This document shows positions 13,227 to 30,389 of a DNA stretch of 34,876 bases, one piece after another. How positions within the stretch are numbered: the first letter of the stretch is position 1; every line of letters begins with the position of its first letter. The notes under the pieces were generated by a model. It was not told the DNA's origin. It ran no database searches and saw nothing but the letters and a program-made list of their open reading frames with translations. The DNA comes from an uncultured Gammaproteobacteria bacterium (lineage in GTDB: Bacteria > Pseudomonadota > Gammaproteobacteria > GCA-002705445 > GCA-002716945): NCBI GenBank assembly GCA_913048065.1, contig CAJWVG010000010.1:1-34876 (forward strand), read 5' to 3'. The position numbers and the translations under genes are program-made.

Positions 13227-13285
13227 AGCTATTTTAAATTTTTTAAGTTATAACTTTTGAATGAAATAAACTTACCATAGGTTTG

Positions 13286-15973
13286 ATGATTTTGGTCGAT
13301 AAAAATGTAAATAATTTTGTTTTAGTTGATGGATCTTCGTATTTATACAGAGCCTATTATGCTCTCCCTCACCTAAAAAACCTGAATGGTGAACATACAG
13401 GAGCAATATTTGGTGTCTCTAGTATGATTTTCAAACTTCTAAAAACATATAATCCTCGACATTTGTGTGTTGTTTTTGATGCTAGAGGTAAAAATTATCG
13501 ACATAGGATATACAAAGACTATAAAGCTAATAGATCAGCGATGCCTTCAGAATTATCAGAACAAGTAAAACCGATAATGAGTTTTATTGAGAATTTAGGT
13601 ATAAAAATTTTACAAGTACCTGACGTAGAAGCCGATGATGTAATAGCAACACTGGCAACCATAAACTATGATAAGAATGTCAACATATTGATTTCGTCTG
13701 GTGATAAAGACTTAGCTCAACTTGTGAGCAATAGAGTTACTTTAGTAAATAGCATGGATGATAAGATTCTTGATATTCAGGGCGTAAAAAATAAATTTGG
13801 AGTGTCACCAGAAAATATATTTGACTATCTAGTTTTGATTGGTGATAAATCTGATAACATTCCTGGCGTAGATAAAATTGGACCCAAAACAGCAATTAAT
13901 CTAATAAACATGTATGGTGATTTAGACGCTATATTGAGTAATATTGATAAACTTAAGGGTAAGGTTAAGGAAAATATTTCAAATTCATCTCAAACAATTA
14001 ATTTAGCTAAAAAACTCATAAAATTGAAGAAGGATGTAAATGTAAGCAAAAATTTAGATGATTATTTAATTCAATCAAGAAATGAAGAATTATTGTCAGA
14101 GATTATAACAAAATATGAATTGAAAAGTATTGCAAAAAACTTCTCAATTGAAAAAAAAATAAGCACAACCCAGAATAAAAAGAAATATAAGATTATTAAA
14201 TCAGAAAGAGATTTTTTAAGTTTATTGGATATTTTACTTGAAGAAAAAATCTTTGCATTTGATACAGAAACAACTTCATTAGATCCTTTTGATGCAGAAC
14301 TTGTTGGAGTCTCTTTTTCGATTAAGGAACATAATGCTTTCTATATTCCTCTAGGTCATGATGCTGATAATATAGATTTTTCAATGGACTTATTTTTACA
14401 AAACCTAAAAAAAATTTTTAACATGAAAGATTTAATAATTATTGGTCAAAATATTAAATATGATATAAATGTTTTACATAAATATGAAGTTGAGTTTAAT
14501 TGTAAGGTCGAAGATACAATGCTTCTATCATATATTTATAATTCTTCTGGAAAACATGATTTAGATACTTTATCGGAAAAATATCTTAATTATAAAACTA
14601 CCACATATGAGGATATTGTTGGTTCTGGTGTGAAACAAAAAAGTTTTGCAGAGATTAATGTCAAGGATGCAGGAAATTATGCTTGCGAGGATGCTGATGT
14701 TACGCTGCAGTTATTCAATTATCTTTCTAAAAAACTCAATACATTAGATGGACAGCAAAAATTATATAGAGATATTGAAAACCCTTTAATTAAAGTCATT
14801 GCACAAATAGAGCAAAATGGAGTAATGATAGATTCTAAAAGTCTAGAGAAACAAAGTATAGACTTAAACAGAAGAATAAAAAAAATAGAAAAAAATGTTT
14901 ATAAACTCGCTAATAAAGAATTTAATATTGGTTCACCCAAACAGCTTCAAGAAATATTTTATGAAGATTTAAAGCTACCTATATTAAAGAAAACACCAAC
15001 AGGCAAACCATCTACTAACGAAGATGTCATGCAAGAATTATCTCTAAGTCATGAATTACCAAAGTTAATTCTGCAATATAGAAATTTAATGAAACTAAAA
15101 AATACATACACAGATAAACTTGGCGGACAAATCAATCAAAGTACTCAAAGACTGCATACATCCTATAATCAAACTGTTACTATAACTGGCAGATTATCTT
15201 CATCAAATCCAAATTTACAAAATATACCCGTTAAAACTCAGGATGGAAAAAATATAAGAAAAACTTTTATAACTCCTAAAAAATATCAAATAATTTCAGC
15301 AGATTATTCGCAAATTGAATTACGAGTTATGGCCCATCTATCAAAAGATAAAAATTTATCAAAAAGTTTTATGAATAATGAGGATATACACTCTGCTACA
15401 GCTAAAGAGATTTTTGCAATCACAAAAAATCCAACAGAGGAGCAACGAAGAGCAGCAAAAACAATTAATTTTGGATTGATTTATGGAATTTCATCATATG
15501 GTTTGAGTAGACAATTAAAAATTGATCCTAATTCTGCTAAAGAATATATTGCTAAATATTTTGAAAGATATAATGGAATAAAAAAGTTTATGGATATTGT
15601 AAAATCTGAAACAAAAAAAAATGGATATACTTCAACATTGTTAGGTAGGAGAATTTATATCCCAAATATTACTCATAGTAATTTTCAAATAAGGAGCGCT
15701 GCTGAGAGAACTGCAATTAATGCTCCAATACAAGGTACAGCAGCAGATATATTGAAGATGGCAATGATAGATGTTTATAAATGGATTAAAGAGGGTAATT
15801 GCCCTATTAGAGTTATAATGCAAGTTCATGATGAACTTGTATTTGAAGTGCAAAAGGACTTTGTGGAAGAGGCAAAAGCTGAAATTACTAAGCTGATGTC
15901 AGGTTGCTATCAGCTTGATGTTCCACTGATAGTTGATGTAGGCGTTGGTGATAACTGGGATAAAGCACATTAA
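13286..15973 (+). CDS. polA: DNA polymerase I
   Basis: Repair and Okazaki-fragment polymerase with three active domains in 895 residues. The 5' nuclease domain has LVDGSSYLYRAYYALP, VPDVEADDVIA, ISSGDKDL and GDKSDNIPGV. The 3'-5' proofreading domain is intact: FDTETTSLD (DxE), GQNIKYDIN and YACEDADV carry the metal ligands. The polymerase domain has motif A ADYSQIELRVMAHL, motif B RRAAKTINFGLIYG and motif C VHDELVFEV. The frame opens with TTG at 13283, immediately followed by the ATG at 13286, which I take as start. The stop is followed by a good promoter for cytochrome c4. Confidence 0.97.
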   Translation: MILVDKNVNNFVLVDGSSYLYRAYYALPHLKNLNGEHTGAIFGVSSMIFKLLKTYNPRHLCVVFDARGKNYRHRIYKDYKANRSAMPSELSEQVKPIMSFIENLGIKILQVPDVEADDVIATLATINYDKNVNILISSGDKDLAQLVSNRVTLVNSMDDKILDIQGVKNKFGVSPENIFDYLVLIGDKSDNIPGVDKIGPKTAINLINMYGDLDAILSNIDKLKGKVKENISNSSQTINLAKKLIKLKKDVNVSKNLDDYLIQSRNEELLSEIITKYELKSIAKNFSIEKKISTTQNKKKYKIIKSERDFLSLLDILLEEKIFAFDTETTSLDPFDAELVGVSFSIKEHNAFYIPLGHDADNIDFSMDLFLQNLKKIFNMKDLIIIGQNIKYDINVLHKYEVEFNCKVEDTMLLSYIYNSSGKHDLDTLSEKYLNYKTTTYEDIVGSGVKQKSFAEINVKDAGNYACEDADVTLQLFNYLSKKLNTLDGQQKLYRDIENPLIKVIAQIEQNGVMIDSKSLEKQSIDLNRRIKKIEKNVYKLANKEFNIGSPKQLQEIFYEDLKLPILKKTPTGKPSTNEDVMQELSLSHELPKLILQYRNLMKLKNTYTDKLGGQINQSTQRLHTSYNQTVTITGRLSSSNPNLQNIPVKTQDGKNIRKTFITPKKYQIISADYSQIELRVMAHLSKDKNLSKSFMNNEDIHSATAKEIFAITKNPTEEQRRAAKTINFGLIYGISSYGLSRQLKIDPNSAKEYIAKYFERYNGIKKFMDIVKSETKKNGYTSTLLGRRIYIPNITHSNFQIRSAAERTAINAPIQGTAADILKMAMIDVYKWIKEGNCPIRVIMQVHDELVFEVQKDFVEEAKAEITKLMSGCYQLDVPLIVDVGVGDNWDKAH

Positions 15974-18762: not shown

Positions 18763-18987
18763 TTAATTTTTTATTTTCTTTTCTAATTCTTCTATTTTTA
18801 ATCTAGTTTTTAACAGAACTTCTTGTTGTATATCAAACTCTTCTCGCGTTACTAATTTCAGCTTATGCAAATAGTCTTCTATGAGCATTTTAATATTTGC
18901 TTTAAGTTCATCTTTTATGTCTTCGCCGTTACTAGGTATAAGATTTTCAATCTTATTAACTAATTCAATTATGCTTTTTGATTTCAT
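18763..18987 (-). CDS. ubiK: Ubiquinone biosynthesis accessory factor UbiK
   Basis: Small coiled-coil protein (74 residues) of the BMFP/YqiC family, which binds UbiJ and helps aerobic coenzyme Q synthesis. The conserved block LVTREEFDIQQEVLLKTRLKIEELE (about 45-69) closely matches E. coli UbiK, and the rest is helical with heptad-like spacing. The divergent gene torF starts about 216 bases away. The NtrC-like dyad at 18993-19009 lies only five bases upstream of this ATG, so nitrogen control might touch this promoter as well. A ubiK gene divergent from a glnK region is also seen in Pseudomonas. Confidence 0.92.
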   Translation of the reverse strand: MKSKSIIELVNKIENLIPSNGEDIKDELKANIKMLIEDYLHKLKLVTREEFDIQQEVLLKTRLKIEELEKKIKN

Positions 18988-18992
18988 TATTT

Positions 18993-19019
18993 TGCACTCT
19001 TATTGTGCATGATATGCAC
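18993..19019. promoter_or_regulatory. NtrC-like enhancer: one full dyad and one half site
   Basis: A perfect dyad TGCAC-N7-GTGCA spans 18993-19009, matching the known NtrC site pattern TGCACC-N5-GGTGCA. A second TGCAC half site at 19015-19019 is followed by TATATT, as in an E. coli glnA site, and starts 22 bases after the first, about two helical turns. Both lie about 130-155 bases upstream of the expected start from the sigma-54-like promoter at 19128-19143, the normal enhancer distance. Confidence 0.65.
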
Positions 19020-19127
19020 TATATTTATTAAACTAGATGCCCGTTTTATGAGCTTTTAACTCACATATTGTATCATATGCATATTCTTTTACACATAAGC
19101 CGTGATTTATTTTTTTATCGTTATGTT

Positions 19128-19143
19128 TGGCATGCTTTATGCA
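19128..19143 (+). promoter_or_regulatory. Sigma-54 type -24/-12 promoter upstream of torF
   Basis: TGGCAT-N5-ATGCA at 19128-19143 matches the sigma-54 consensus TGGCAC-N5-TTGCW at the invariant GG and GC, which are correctly twelve bases apart, with two mismatches elsewhere. Transcription would begin near 19154, leaving a leader of about 50 bases before the torF ATG at 19204. Together with the NtrC-like dyad upstream this suggests activation under nitrogen limitation. Confidence 0.6.
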
Positions 19144-19203
19144 TATTAATAACTGATATATCTTAAATTTATTAAGAATAAATAACTAAAATGGAGAAAA
19201 TAG

Positions 19204-23990: not shown

Positions 23991-26159
23991 TTAGTATAAA
24001 TCAATAGGGTCTATATCTATAGACCATTTAATATTACTCTTTTTTTGTTTCATTATATATTCTCTTATTTCTGTAGATTTTTGTAGTAAAAATTTCCTAT
24101 TATTAGAATTTACTAGTAACTGATAAAAATATCGATTATTTTTTTTATGAATTGGGGATGGGGATGGTCCAAGTAATTTTATATTATTTTCATTAAATTT
24201 GTTTTTAATTTTTGATAGAAATATTAGTCCTTCACCTTTATATTTTGTTGAAACTCTAAACAATGCTAGATATGAATAAGGCGGCAATGAAGCATGGTTT
24301 CTATCCTCTAATGCTTTATTGGAAAATCCATTATAACCATATTCAAGTAATTCGGACATTAATGGATGTCCAGGCTTTCTAGTTTGAATAATGACTTTCC
24401 CTGGAGAATCATGTCTACCTGACCTCCCTGAAACTTGTATAAGCATTTGTGCTATCTTTTCGATACTTCTAAAATCTAAACTATATAGTCCAGCATCAAT
24501 GTCCATGACCCCCACGAGTGTCAAATTTGGAAAGTCATGGCCTTTAACCAACATTTGAGTACCTATTAAAATATCAATCTTCCCGTCACGTGCCTGATTT
24601 AAAAAAGAATTTAGTTTATCAATATTATTTATTGTATCGCTATCAATCCTCATAATATTTGCATGAGGAAATAAAGATTTAGCTTTTGTTTCCACTCTTT
24701 CTGTGCCAGCACCTAATGGTATTATGTTGCACTCATTCCTTTTATCACAAGAACAAATATTTTTTAAATTTACTTTTTTTTGATAACCACAATGATGGCA
24801 ATACAATTTACTATCATAGTCATGATAAGTCATAAACGCATCACAATTATCACATTTAGATGTCCAGCCACATGTTTTACATAACAATGTATGGCTAAAC
24901 CCTCTTCTATTTATAAAAAGTAAAGTTTGTTTTTTATTTTTTAATGTTTCTTTTATTTCTTTTATAAGACCCATTGAGAAACCTTCAGATGGTTGATCTT
25001 TATTTGTATCGATTACCGTTACACTAGGTAGTTTTGTATTAAAAAATCTACTCTTTAAAATAATATGGTCATACTTAGTTTTTTTACAATTATATAGGCT
25101 TTCAAATGAGGGTGTTGCGCTACCCATTAAAATAGGTATATTTAAATTCTTAGCTCTGATTATTGCAACGTCTCTAGCATGATACCTTAGGACATCTGAT
25201 TGTTTAAGCGAAACATCATGTTCTTCATCTACTATAATAAGTTTTAGATTTGAAAACGGTAAATATATTGATGAGCGTGTTCCAATAATTATATCAACTT
25301 GTCCATTTTTAGCTCTGATCCATGTATTATTTTTAACTTTATCACTTAGTCCAGAATGATAACTGGAAATGCTACAATTTAAATAGCTCTTAAATCTATT
25401 TATAGTTTGTGGAGTTAAATTAATTTCCGGTACTACTATTAGAACTTGTCCTTTTTTATTTACAATATCTTTTGCAATTTTTATATATAATTCAGTTTTC
25501 CCGCTACCAGTTACGCCTTCAATTAAAAAAGCTTGGAAGAACGATATTTTTTTAGAAATTAATTTATAAGCATCATTTTGTTCTTCGCTTAATCTAATCT
25601 TTTTAGTGTTAATTCTTTTATCTTCTATGGGTGACTTCTCAATGAGGTTATTAGATAATAATAAATTTATTAAATTTGAAGGTTTTATGATATCTGATCT
25701 TACTGTTCCAGAACTTTCAATTTTTTTAAAAAGCCTATATTGAGCAGGTTTATTTTTGAAATATGTATCATCGGTTTGTTTTTTTACCTTTAATAAAAAT
25801 GCTTGATTTTCCTTAATTTCTAAATCTCCTCCTTTTTTAATTTTTGAAGGCAAGCTACTAAATATTACTTGACCTAGTGGATGTTGATAATAATCAGCTG
25901 ACCATTTACATATTTTAAAAACTTCATTTGTTATTATTGGCTTTAAATCTATTACTTTATTTATATTCTTAAGCTTATATTTATTTTCTGAGATATTTCT
26001 TATTGTAGGGTCTGTAATTGTTATCCCTATAAGATTTTTAGTGCCAAAAGGAACTTCAACCCTCATACCTGGCCTCAAATCCCTGAAATGCTTCGGAACT
26101 AGATAGTCAAATGACTTATAAATAGGTAAATTGAGAATAATTTTAATTTGATTGGGCAT
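23991..26159 (-). CDS. priA: Primosomal protein N' (replication restart helicase PriA)
   Basis: 3'-5' helicase that reloads the replisome at collapsed forks. The N-terminal 3'-end-binding domain contains RPGMRVEVPFGTK. Walker A is GVTGSGKTELY (about 214-224), the DEAH-type motif is VDEEHD, and QVSGRSGR is motif VI. The zinc-binding domain has CKTC, CDNC and CHHC pairs, but the last pair, normally CxxCG, appears as CSCDKRNEC, with the spacing altered and an extra cysteine. A TATAAT lies on the - strand at 26170-26165, only five bases before the ATG, with AGGAT between, so the transcript may be nearly leaderless. It borders the DnaA-box region. Confidence 0.96.
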   Translation of the reverse strand: MPNQIKIILNLPIYKSFDYLVPKHFRDLRPGMRVEVPFGTKNLIGITITDPTIRNISENKYKLKNINKVIDLKPIITNEVFKICKWSADYYQHPLGQVIFSSLPSKIKKGGDLEIKENQAFLLKVKKQTDDTYFKNKPAQYRLFKKIESSGTVRSDIIKPSNLINLLLSNNLIEKSPIEDKRINTKKIRLSEEQNDAYKLISKKISFFQAFLIEGVTGSGKTELYIKIAKDIVNKKGQVLIVVPEINLTPQTINRFKSYLNCSISSYHSGLSDKVKNNTWIRAKNGQVDIIIGTRSSIYLPFSNLKLIIVDEEHDVSLKQSDVLRYHARDVAIIRAKNLNIPILMGSATPSFESLYNCKKTKYDHIILKSRFFNTKLPSVTVIDTNKDQPSEGFSMGLIKEIKETLKNKKQTLLFINRRGFSHTLLCKTCGWTSKCDNCDAFMTYHDYDSKLYCHHCGYQKKVNLKNICSCDKRNECNIIPLGAGTERVETKAKSLFPHANIMRIDSDTINNIDKLNSFLNQARDGKIDILIGTQMLVKGHDFPNLTLVGVMDIDAGLYSLDFRSIEKIAQMLIQVSGRSGRHDSPGKVIIQTRKPGHPLMSELLEYGYNGFSNKALEDRNHASLPPYSYLALFRVSTKYKGEGLIFLSKIKNKFNENNIKLLGPSPSPIHKKNNRYFYQLLVNSNNRKFLLQKSTEIREYIMKQKKSNIKWSIDIDPIDLY

Positions 26160-26595
26160 ATCCTATTATACATTTAGGCTCTTTTTTTGATATGACTGTA
26201 TATTTAATAGATCTGTAAATTTATCCACAGTTTTTGTTAACAAACCTGTGGATAAATAGCATTATTTGTTCGTAGGTTATTTTGCTATTTAAATTTTCTC
26301 AAATTGTTCATTTTGTAATCAATTTAATTTATATATATAAAACATATACTTACAAGATTAAATAAGAATGTAACATTATAGTGTCTTTTTAAGATTATGT
26401 TTATTGGGAATCGCTCTCATTGTTAATAAATCCCTCAAATTCAGTATACTTTTGATAAATCCTAGACATTAATTGGGTAATTAGCTGTTGTTTTTTTCCA
26501 TTTTAATATATTCATAGTAATATTATTGAACTAAAGCTATAGACAATAAAATATTAAGGCATTTAATATTAGAATTTCAGCTATAATTCAAAATA
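26160..26595. other. 436-base noncoding gap; candidate origin or DnaA-binding locus
   Basis: The largest gap in the window, between the divergent priA and HNH genes. Near its priA end it holds an inverted pair of perfect DnaA boxes (26219-26257). About 25-125 bases further on there is very AT-rich sequence (26280-26400, including an ATATATATAA run) that could unwind easily. A TATAAT at 26582-26587 lies eight bases before the HNH ATG. I see no open frame of note and no recognisable RNA gene. The combination resembles a bacterial replication origin, but no dnaA, dnaN, mnmG or other classical origin neighbour is in the window. Other readings are a DnaA titration site or a DnaA-controlled promoter for priA. 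Confidence 0.4.
26219..26257. repeat. Inverted repeat of two perfect DnaA boxes
   Basis: ATTTATCCACAG at 26219-26230 and its exact complement CTGTGGATAAAT at 26246-26257 form 12-base arms around a 15-base spacer. Each arm contains the DnaA 9-mer TTATCCACA (26221-26229 on + and 26255-26247 on -). The spacer itself holds a 12-base palindrome TTTGTTAACAAA at 26233-26244, off-centre by half a base. Two exact high-affinity boxes in opposite orientation in a noncoding gap are unlikely by chance. Confidence 0.8.
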
Positions 26596-27180
26596 ATGTT
26601 TAATAATCAGCAAATACTCAGACTAAATTCAGCCGGTCATCCTATTGGGTGGGTCAATTACGAAATAGCTGCGAGGTTATATTACACAGACCAAATAATA
26701 TATGAGTGTGGCACAACTAACCTGAGGCTGAGAGGTGGTTATAACCGCATAACACAGCTCAGAAGCTATCTAAATATAAATTCTATTATTGCTACCAGGA
26801 ATCTCAATAAACTCCATTATCCCGCTTTTACGCCCTCATTAAACAATAAGACTCTGTTCAAAAGAGATGCAAATAAATGCCTATATTGTGGAAATACATT
26901 TGATTATAAGGATTTGTCTCGAGACCATGTTTTGCCATTATCTCAAGGTGGCGAAGATATTTGGACTAACGTTGTATCTGCATGCAAAAGATGTAATAAC
27001 CATAAAGGGGGTCGAACTCCAGAAAAGGCTAATATGCTTCTATTAGCTATACCATTTAGTCCTTCGAGAGTTGAATATATAATATTAAGGGGAAGAACAA
27101 TACTAGCTGATCAAATGGAATTTTTGATATCTCATATATCAAAATCTAGCCCTTTTTTTCAGAGATATAAAAAACTTTGA
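26596..27180 (+). CDS. HNH endonuclease-family protein
   Basis: The 194-residue protein has an HNH/zinc-finger nuclease domain in its centre: C95-x2-C98, D110-H111 with the catalytic His in RDHVLPLSQGG, N125 and C130-x2-C133-N134. It has the compact beta-beta-alpha-metal layout with a structural zinc. The N-terminal 80 residues are not part of the nuclease core (LRLNSAGHPIGWV and LRLRGG segments), and the C-terminus is basic. This architecture occurs as a conserved chromosomal gene in many proteobacteria with no known function; it does not look like a homing endonuclease or a restriction system, since no methylase is nearby. The start is chosen at the only ATG before the conserved part. It is 20 bases from hemH. 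Confidence 0.85.
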   Translation: MFNNQQILRLNSAGHPIGWVNYEIAARLYYTDQIIYECGTTNLRLRGGYNRITQLRSYLNINSIIATRNLNKLHYPAFTPSLNNKTLFKRDANKCLYCGNTFDYKDLSRDHVLPLSQGGEDIWTNVVSACKRCNNHKGGRTPEKANMLLLAIPFSPSRVEYIILRGRTILADQMEFLISHISKSSPFFQRYKKL

Positions 27181-29477: not shown

Positions 29478-30389
29478 TTAGGATATAAATAATTTTTTTA
29501 TGTCTCTTAACCAAGATTCTTTTTGCCCTTCTTTCATACCAGTTTCAAGAAATAACGCCTCTAATCCATTAATATCAAGTACCTTTCTTTGTATAGCGGC
29601 AATATCTTTATTTAGATCAGTAATATACTCTAGTGTAGCTAACTTTTTAGAAAGATAAATAATTTTTTGATTATCTTTTATAATCTTTACAAATCTTTTA
29701 TATTTTGAGCCTAGCTCTTCTGGAATTGTCTCAAGGTTTTGTACTATTTTTTTTAAACTCTTATACTTTCCCATTAGTACCATAGCAGTTTTTTCTCCTA
29801 ATCCTGGAGCGCCAGGTATATTATCAACTGAATCACCCATTAGAGCTAAAAAATCCGATAAATCTTGCGGAGAAAAATTAAGCTTATGAACTAAATCTTT
29901 ATAACTGTACTTTTTATCTTTAAAATCCCACCAAATATCTCCTTTATAAATTATTTGATATAAATCTTTATCATTTGTTAGGATAATATTTTTTAACCCT
30001 CCTTTTCTAGTGTTCTGTGCTATGGTGTTTAATATATCGTCTGCCTCATACTTTTTACTTGCGTTATTATCTAGACCCATTAATGTCAAAAATTTTCTAC
30101 ATAGTTCAAGTTGATTTTTGAGTTCATCCGGGGCACTCTCTCTAGTTTTTTTATAATCTGGATAGAGCTCGTTTCTGAAACAAGTACCTAAGCTTTCATC
30201 AAACTGAAAAGATATGTACTTGGGTTGATAATTTTTCAAAAGTCTGATTACAAAACTTGCAAAACCAAGAAAGGCTGCTATAGATTCAAAATTTTTTGTC
30301 TTTACTGGAGGCATTGAAAACCAATACTTTAGGGCAAAACCTGTTGAATCTACCAGAAATGCATTATTAATGTATTGTTTATTGTACAA
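29478..30389 (-). CDS. Stand-alone 5'-3' exonuclease / flap endonuclease
   Basis: Homologue of the N-terminal 5' nuclease domain of DNA polymerase I, without a polymerase, 303 residues. Metal-site motifs are present: LVDSTG (12-17), KYEADDIL (about 113-120), LTNDKDLYQI and GDSVDNIPGAPGLGEKTA (about 185-202), the last being the helix-hairpin-helix region. Candidate roles are Okazaki-fragment or flap processing, overlapping that of PolA's own 5' nuclease. The start is TTG at 30389, overlapping the M48 gene by eleven bases; an in-frame stop lies two codons upstream, and the next ATG would remove the catalytic LVDSTG. It may correspond to the ExoIX/Xni type, but it is longer than E. coli Xni, so I give no symbol. 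Confidence 0.85.
   Translation of the reverse strand: MYNKQYINNAFLVDSTGFALKYWFSMPPVKTKNFESIAAFLGFASFVIRLLKNYQPKYISFQFDESLGTCFRNELYPDYKKTRESAPDELKNQLELCRKFLTLMGLDNNASKKYEADDILNTIAQNTRKGGLKNIILTNDKDLYQIIYKGDIWWDFKDKKYSYKDLVHKLNFSPQDLSDFLALMGDSVDNIPGAPGLGEKTAMVLMGKYKSLKKIVQNLETIPEELGSKYKRFVKIIKDNQKIIYLSKKLATLEYITDLNKDIAAIQRKVLDINGLEALFLETGMKEGQKESWLRDIKKLFIS

Follow-up and report, generated by a model that had tools for sequence, protein, structure and literature searches.

The priA upstream region and its DnaA boxes

The window analysed here, the whole stretch of 34,876 nucleotides, carries on its minus strand the gene for the replication-restart helicase PriA (priA, positions 23991–26159) and, on the far side of the intergenic gap upstream of it, a plus-strand gene for an HNH endonuclease-domain protein (26596–27180). 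The latter is a stand-alone protein whose HNH domain scores best against Cas9d and IscB models, and its gene remains beside priA–hemH in several relatives.

Within this gap, two exact matches to TTATCCACA face each other at 26221–26229 (plus strand) and 26247–26255 (minus strand). With their flanks they form an inverted repeat (26219–26257) whose 12-bp arms, 26219–26230 and 26246–26257, are perfect reverse complements separated by a spacer of 15 bases. This perfect mirrored pair of DnaA boxes, and its position just upstream of priA, had been claimed in an earlier, sequence-only reading of this DNA, and both are confirmed. When the window was Markov-shuffled 200 times, one shuffle contained an opposed pair of TTATCCACA no more than 60 bp apart, and in the whole 1.04-Mb assembly the box occurs ten times, close together only at the dyad. 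Two other elements of that reading were overstated. The gap had been described as the largest noncoding gap of the window, yet the ~436 bp between priA and the HNH gene are exceeded by 441 bp at 18763–19203 in the open reading frame list. The flank of the dyad, described as very AT-rich, contains 73–83% A+T against ~70% A+T for the window overall, a composition closer to ordinary intergenic DNA than to a distinct unwinding element.

Two DnaA boxes absent from the sequence-only reading were also found, a degenerate box between the arms and another ~170 bp away. Read toward priA, the array consists of box III (TTATCCACA, the exact match at 26247–26255, minus strand), a spacer of three bases (N3), box II (TTGTTAACA, at 26235–26243, minus strand, with two mismatches to TTATNCACA), a spacer of five bases (N5) and box I (TTATCCACA, at 26221–26229, plus strand), which is inverted relative to boxes II and III and lies closest to priA, placing the element 62 bp from the priA start codon. 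The inverted repeat comprises boxes III and I with their flanks; judged by comparison with related sequences, the dyad supplies the outer two boxes of a conserved array of three, a putative DnaA control element. The window core fits the three-box pattern with two mismatches, both in box II, and the copies in the family and class fit better, box II in relatives being TTATCCACA, TTATTCACA or similar. Owing to its palindromic centre, the window copy also fits an N4/N4 spacing on the other strand, and it is the relatives that decide which reading is homologous, their sequences identifying it as N3/N5.

The more distant box, box IV (TTATTAACA, one mismatch; 26421–26429, minus strand), lies 174 bp upstream of the core. 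Between the two are a predicted Fis-consensus site (GATTACAAAATGAAC, matching GnnYAnnnnnTRnnC; 26306–26320, minus strand), 65 bp upstream of the core, and a predicted, weak IHF-like site (TAAGTATATGTTT, two mismatches to YAANNNNTTGATW; 26340–26352, minus strand). On the other side of the core, a TATAAT at 26165–26170 (minus strand) starts 11 nt before the priA ATG and is a candidate −10 element. The same hexamer is found at this distance in most family members (loci L061–L082), so placed that it is likely to be the −10 element of a leaderless-type priA promoter, and its spacing suggests that priA transcripts are leaderless.

Conservation in the family and across Gammaproteobacteria

The outer pair with its N3/N5 spacing was found upstream of priA in 22 of the 25 family genomes, and in a 23rd (G010) the three-box pattern lies upstream of priA with two mismatches. 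The core is therefore present upstream of priA in all 23 family genomes in which priA was found, the remaining two of the 25 assemblies having no strong PriA match. The dyad is thus strongly conserved, and the lack of conservation in relatives that the sequence-only reading had put forward as evidence against it failed outright to appear.

Across the class, the same geometry with three or fewer mismatches was detected in 294 of 369 gammaproteobacterial genomes. As controls, the reversed pattern matched in two genomes in the same class search, and the N4/N4 spacing in 2 of 94 genomes, one of these being the window locus with its palindromic centre. For 80 genomes with modules listed, priA was located and the module and priA coordinates were compared by hand, 78 of these genomes being assessable. 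A module was situated just upstream of priA in 39 of the 78, representing 21 further families, and all 39 run in the direction of priA. These modules lie 714–974 bp before the beginning of the helicase domain, mostly 35–300 bp before the ATG. Box II does not vary among them (TTATCCACA), and box I varies very little. Of 20 genomes for which no priA module was listed, about six have a weaker match at the same place.

The wider arrangement is conserved as well. Box IV was identified at all 22 family loci, either at −174/−175 from the core or, in one genus, at −185/−186, one helical turn further. The 38 priA loci of the class with sufficient sequence all have it as well, between −174 and −189 and usually as TTATGCACA or TTATACACA. 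A full Fis consensus near −66 is present at 20 of 22 family loci and 15 of 38 class priA loci, and an IHF-like site near −98 with at most one mismatch at 17 of 22 and 25 of 38, respectively. Shuffled sequences gave about one or no IHF-like or Fis matches, and the real loci are far above this. The order at priA loci is core, Fis, IHF and box IV, giving a cassette of ~215 bp at which DnaA, Fis and IHF would be expected to bind. In the window itself, box II and the IHF-like site appear to have decayed, and the element may be less active than in relatives; as both sites carry two mismatches, this genome may rely less on it.

Modules away from priA were located in mixed contexts, including the 3′ side of proS, thrB near polA, ksgA, xseA and others, and no shared partner gene emerged for them. 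Box IV is also present at 25 of the 41 non-priA loci with a good core. In Competibacter/Contendobacter-type genomes, the DnaA cassette is found 11–35 bp past the 3′ end of proS (loci L147, L162, L174, L210, L226, L236, L250, L253 and L257; proS was identified from L147, with which the others cluster).

Similarity to DARS and alternative functions

To our knowledge, DARS sites are known chiefly in E. coli and its close relatives. The cores of DARS1 and DARS2 both consist of three boxes with equal spacing, box I being opposite to boxes II and III (PMC5742627). In E. coli K-12, the DARS1 core (TAATACACA-tgg-TTATCCACA-ggaat-AGTGGATAA) has two mismatches to the three-box pattern and that of DARS2 (TTCTTCACA-act-CTATCCACA-gaaaa-GGTGAATAA) has three, and the K-12 oriC region that was fetched contains no three-box site at five or fewer mismatches. 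DARS2, between rppH and mutH, shares with the priA element a three-box core of identical spacing and orientation. In the ~200 bp upstream of this core, DARS2 likewise carries additional DnaA boxes together with sites resembling those of Fis and IHF (PMC4245941). The order of these sites differs, however, as the IHF-like sites of DARS2 (about −71 and −87) are closer to the core than its sole full Fis match (−125), the reverse of the priA cassette, and the DARS2 box at −185 is inverted, unlike box IV of the priA element. DARS1, between bioD and uvrB, shares the core geometry and is likewise intergenic and upstream of a DNA-repair gene, but it points away from uvrB whereas the priA core points toward priA. 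The neighbours of the priA element are priA and the HNH gene, which match neither of the E. coli neighbourhoods (uvrB; rppH–mutH), and no such element is present at E. coli priA. A literature search, in which coverage of subscription papers was poor, returned no paper tying DARS or DnaA boxes to priA.

The element upstream of priA is probably a DnaA-binding control site of the DARS type, as evidenced by its sequence and arrangement. The sequence-only reading had offered, as its fallback, a site at which DnaA is titrated or reactivated, or control of priA by DnaA, and this is supported by the DARS-core geometry and the conserved place upstream of priA. The pointer to DARS is the opposed box I; boxes III and II by themselves are no proof of it, since pairs of tandem boxes 2–3 bp apart serve generally for DnaA binding in E. 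coli, at promoters as well (PMC11317965). With boxes III, II and I as the core of the element, ADP-DnaA molecules on boxes II and I would contact each other head to head, lose their ADP and so become free to rebind ATP. The analogy is with E. coli DARS, where DnaA molecules in such contact at boxes I and II give up their ADP (PMC8682772). Together with the core, box IV and the intervening Fis- and IHF-like sites could assemble into a bent nucleoprotein complex, by which the release of ADP would be timed or stimulated. In E. coli, DARS2 needs both IHF and Fis (PMC4245941), and DARS1, of 101 bp, is active without either (PMC5742627).

Partners for such a cycle were sought with tblastn in a genome of the same genus (G006; 3 contigs, 99% complete), which encodes Hda, DiaA, Fis and two IHF subunits and gave no SeqA or Dam match. 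Its DnaA is 48% identical to that of E. coli and retains D269, the sensor 1 residue required at DARS1, along with R285 and the DNA-recognition residues examined, R399 and D433–T436, with L290 replaced by M.

As the element is only 62 bp from the start codon and fixed in orientation, DnaA bound there may possibly adjust priA transcription too, and such a promoter role would be compatible with a DARS role rather than exclusive of it. The further alternative is that the element is mainly a promoter operator, through which DnaA would activate or repress priA and couple restart capacity to initiation, nucleotide exchange not being its purpose. DnaA is known to regulate promoters in E. coli, for example those of nrdA and polA (PMC11317965), and an operator would agree with the orientation toward priA at 39 of 39 class loci, the distances of 35–300 bp in nearly all of them and the TATAAT 11 nt before the ATG in the family. 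The distances from core to TATAAT in the family cluster near 29, 41 and 51 bp (p about 0.04), a weak hint of helical phasing. A plain operator, however, could do without an opposed third box at exactly N5 and without a fourth box at a constant gap of 165 bp; across the class the ATG lies at widely differing distances, and the array of box IV, IHF-like site and core also exists away from priA, the 3′ side of proS included. An operator as the main function is therefore considered unlikely, though it is the strongest of the alternatives to a DARS-type site.

A site resembling datA is less probable again, and we would be surprised by it. Here an IHF bend would bring box IV and the core into a complex in which ATP-DnaA hydrolyses its ATP, or the boxes would simply titrate DnaA. 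The DnaA boxes flank the IHF-like site, as they do in datA (PMC5742627), which acts on ATP-DnaA by hydrolysis and which is likened to the priA element here from its description alone. The core, on the other hand, contains the opposed pair of boxes I and II with DARS spacing, an arrangement that has been described as prominent in DARS sites.

If the DARS-type reading is true, such arrays occur in more than 20 gammaproteobacterial families and, in half of the sampled genomes, at priA, suggesting that DnaA recharging is old and widespread, and the initiator DnaA is tied to the replication-restart helicase PriA. The array supplies the exact bases for mutation, making the idea directly testable. 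A broader scenario, which we put forward tentatively and think may well be wrong, is that an ancestral gammaproteobacterial DARS of ~215 bp (box IV, IHF, Fis, core) upstream of priA coupled DnaA recharging with the supply of PriA, that it has been retained as the sole DARS in streamlined lineages like the present one, and that in E. coli the copy at priA was lost while other sites survived.

Position relative to the replication origin

The element had initially been claimed as a candidate replication origin. It does share with gammaproteobacterial oriC the presence of DnaA boxes beside A+T-rich intergenic DNA. The window comes from a fragmented assembly (62 contigs, 82.6% complete) in which no dnaA match appeared, in agreement with the claim that no dnaA is nearby, and the origin was therefore tested in relatives. 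In G006, contig 1 carries rsmG-mnmG-mnmE-yidC-dnaA-dnaN-recF-gyrB at 46.5–59 kb and priA at 179–181 kb. Raw GC skew was too noisy at 0–300 kb of this genome, so a likelihood model was adopted that combines gene strand with T/A and G/C skew at fourfold sites, the terminus being fixed at a clear switch at ~598 kb and contig 2 assumed to follow contig 1; taken by itself, the GC component of the model gave no location for the origin. The combined likelihood is highest at 50 kb, at the dnaA cluster, and falls by ~44 log units for an origin placed at priA (180–181 kb). The bootstrap 97.5% point is 90 kb, with a wide lower limit, and the antipode of the terminus falls at ~49 kb if the contigs join as modelled. 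For two further relatives a single contig each was used, with no assumption on contig joins, and in these the switch is at 132.5 kb against dnaA at 133–134 kb (G011) and at 122.5 kb against dnaA at 124–125 kb (G001), with modest differences in likelihood. The distance between the dnaA cluster and the priA element is ~127–130 kb in G006 and 126 kb in G011.

The best switch is thus at the dnaA cluster in all three relatives, and the claim of an origin is not supported. Unlike oriC, the intergenic element is off the strand and skew switch, away from oriC in relatives, and not beside dnaA, dnaN or mnmG. An origin at priA was ruled out by strand and skew likelihood and by synteny in relatives. What would favour the chromosomal oriC having been relocated to priA in this lineage is that, on the two large contigs of G006, the priA element is the only cluster of at least three TTATNCACA boxes, and that the rpmH–dnaA gap of this genome has no such box at one or fewer mismatches except TTATTCATA; the gap beside dnaA is thus not the richer in boxes, as the sequence-only reading had envisaged for an origin elsewhere. 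Against the likelihood results above, and with the same element at priA in 21 other families, a relocated origin is very improbable. A paper on the Francisella oriC was considered as a precedent for an origin near priA and was dropped, as that oriC adjoins dnaA.

Least credible of all, and in effect dismissed, is a chance inverted repeat, RNA hairpin or terminator: a terminator-like pattern does overlap the dyad on the plus strand, but the exact conservation in the family excludes it, the pairing of the outer arms decays across the class whereas boxes II and I stay fixed, and no Rfam family matched at the dyad.

The rpmH–dnaA gap (G006:C1:52587-52833, L085; dnaA loci L013–L022) is likely to be the oriC of the family; it is short, and in most members it contains no consensus DnaA box. 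The priA element, by contrast, keeps near-perfect DnaA boxes. Elsewhere in the window, a separate 5′–3′ exonuclease of the PolA N-terminal type is encoded at 29478–30389, in addition to a full-length polA at 13283–15973.
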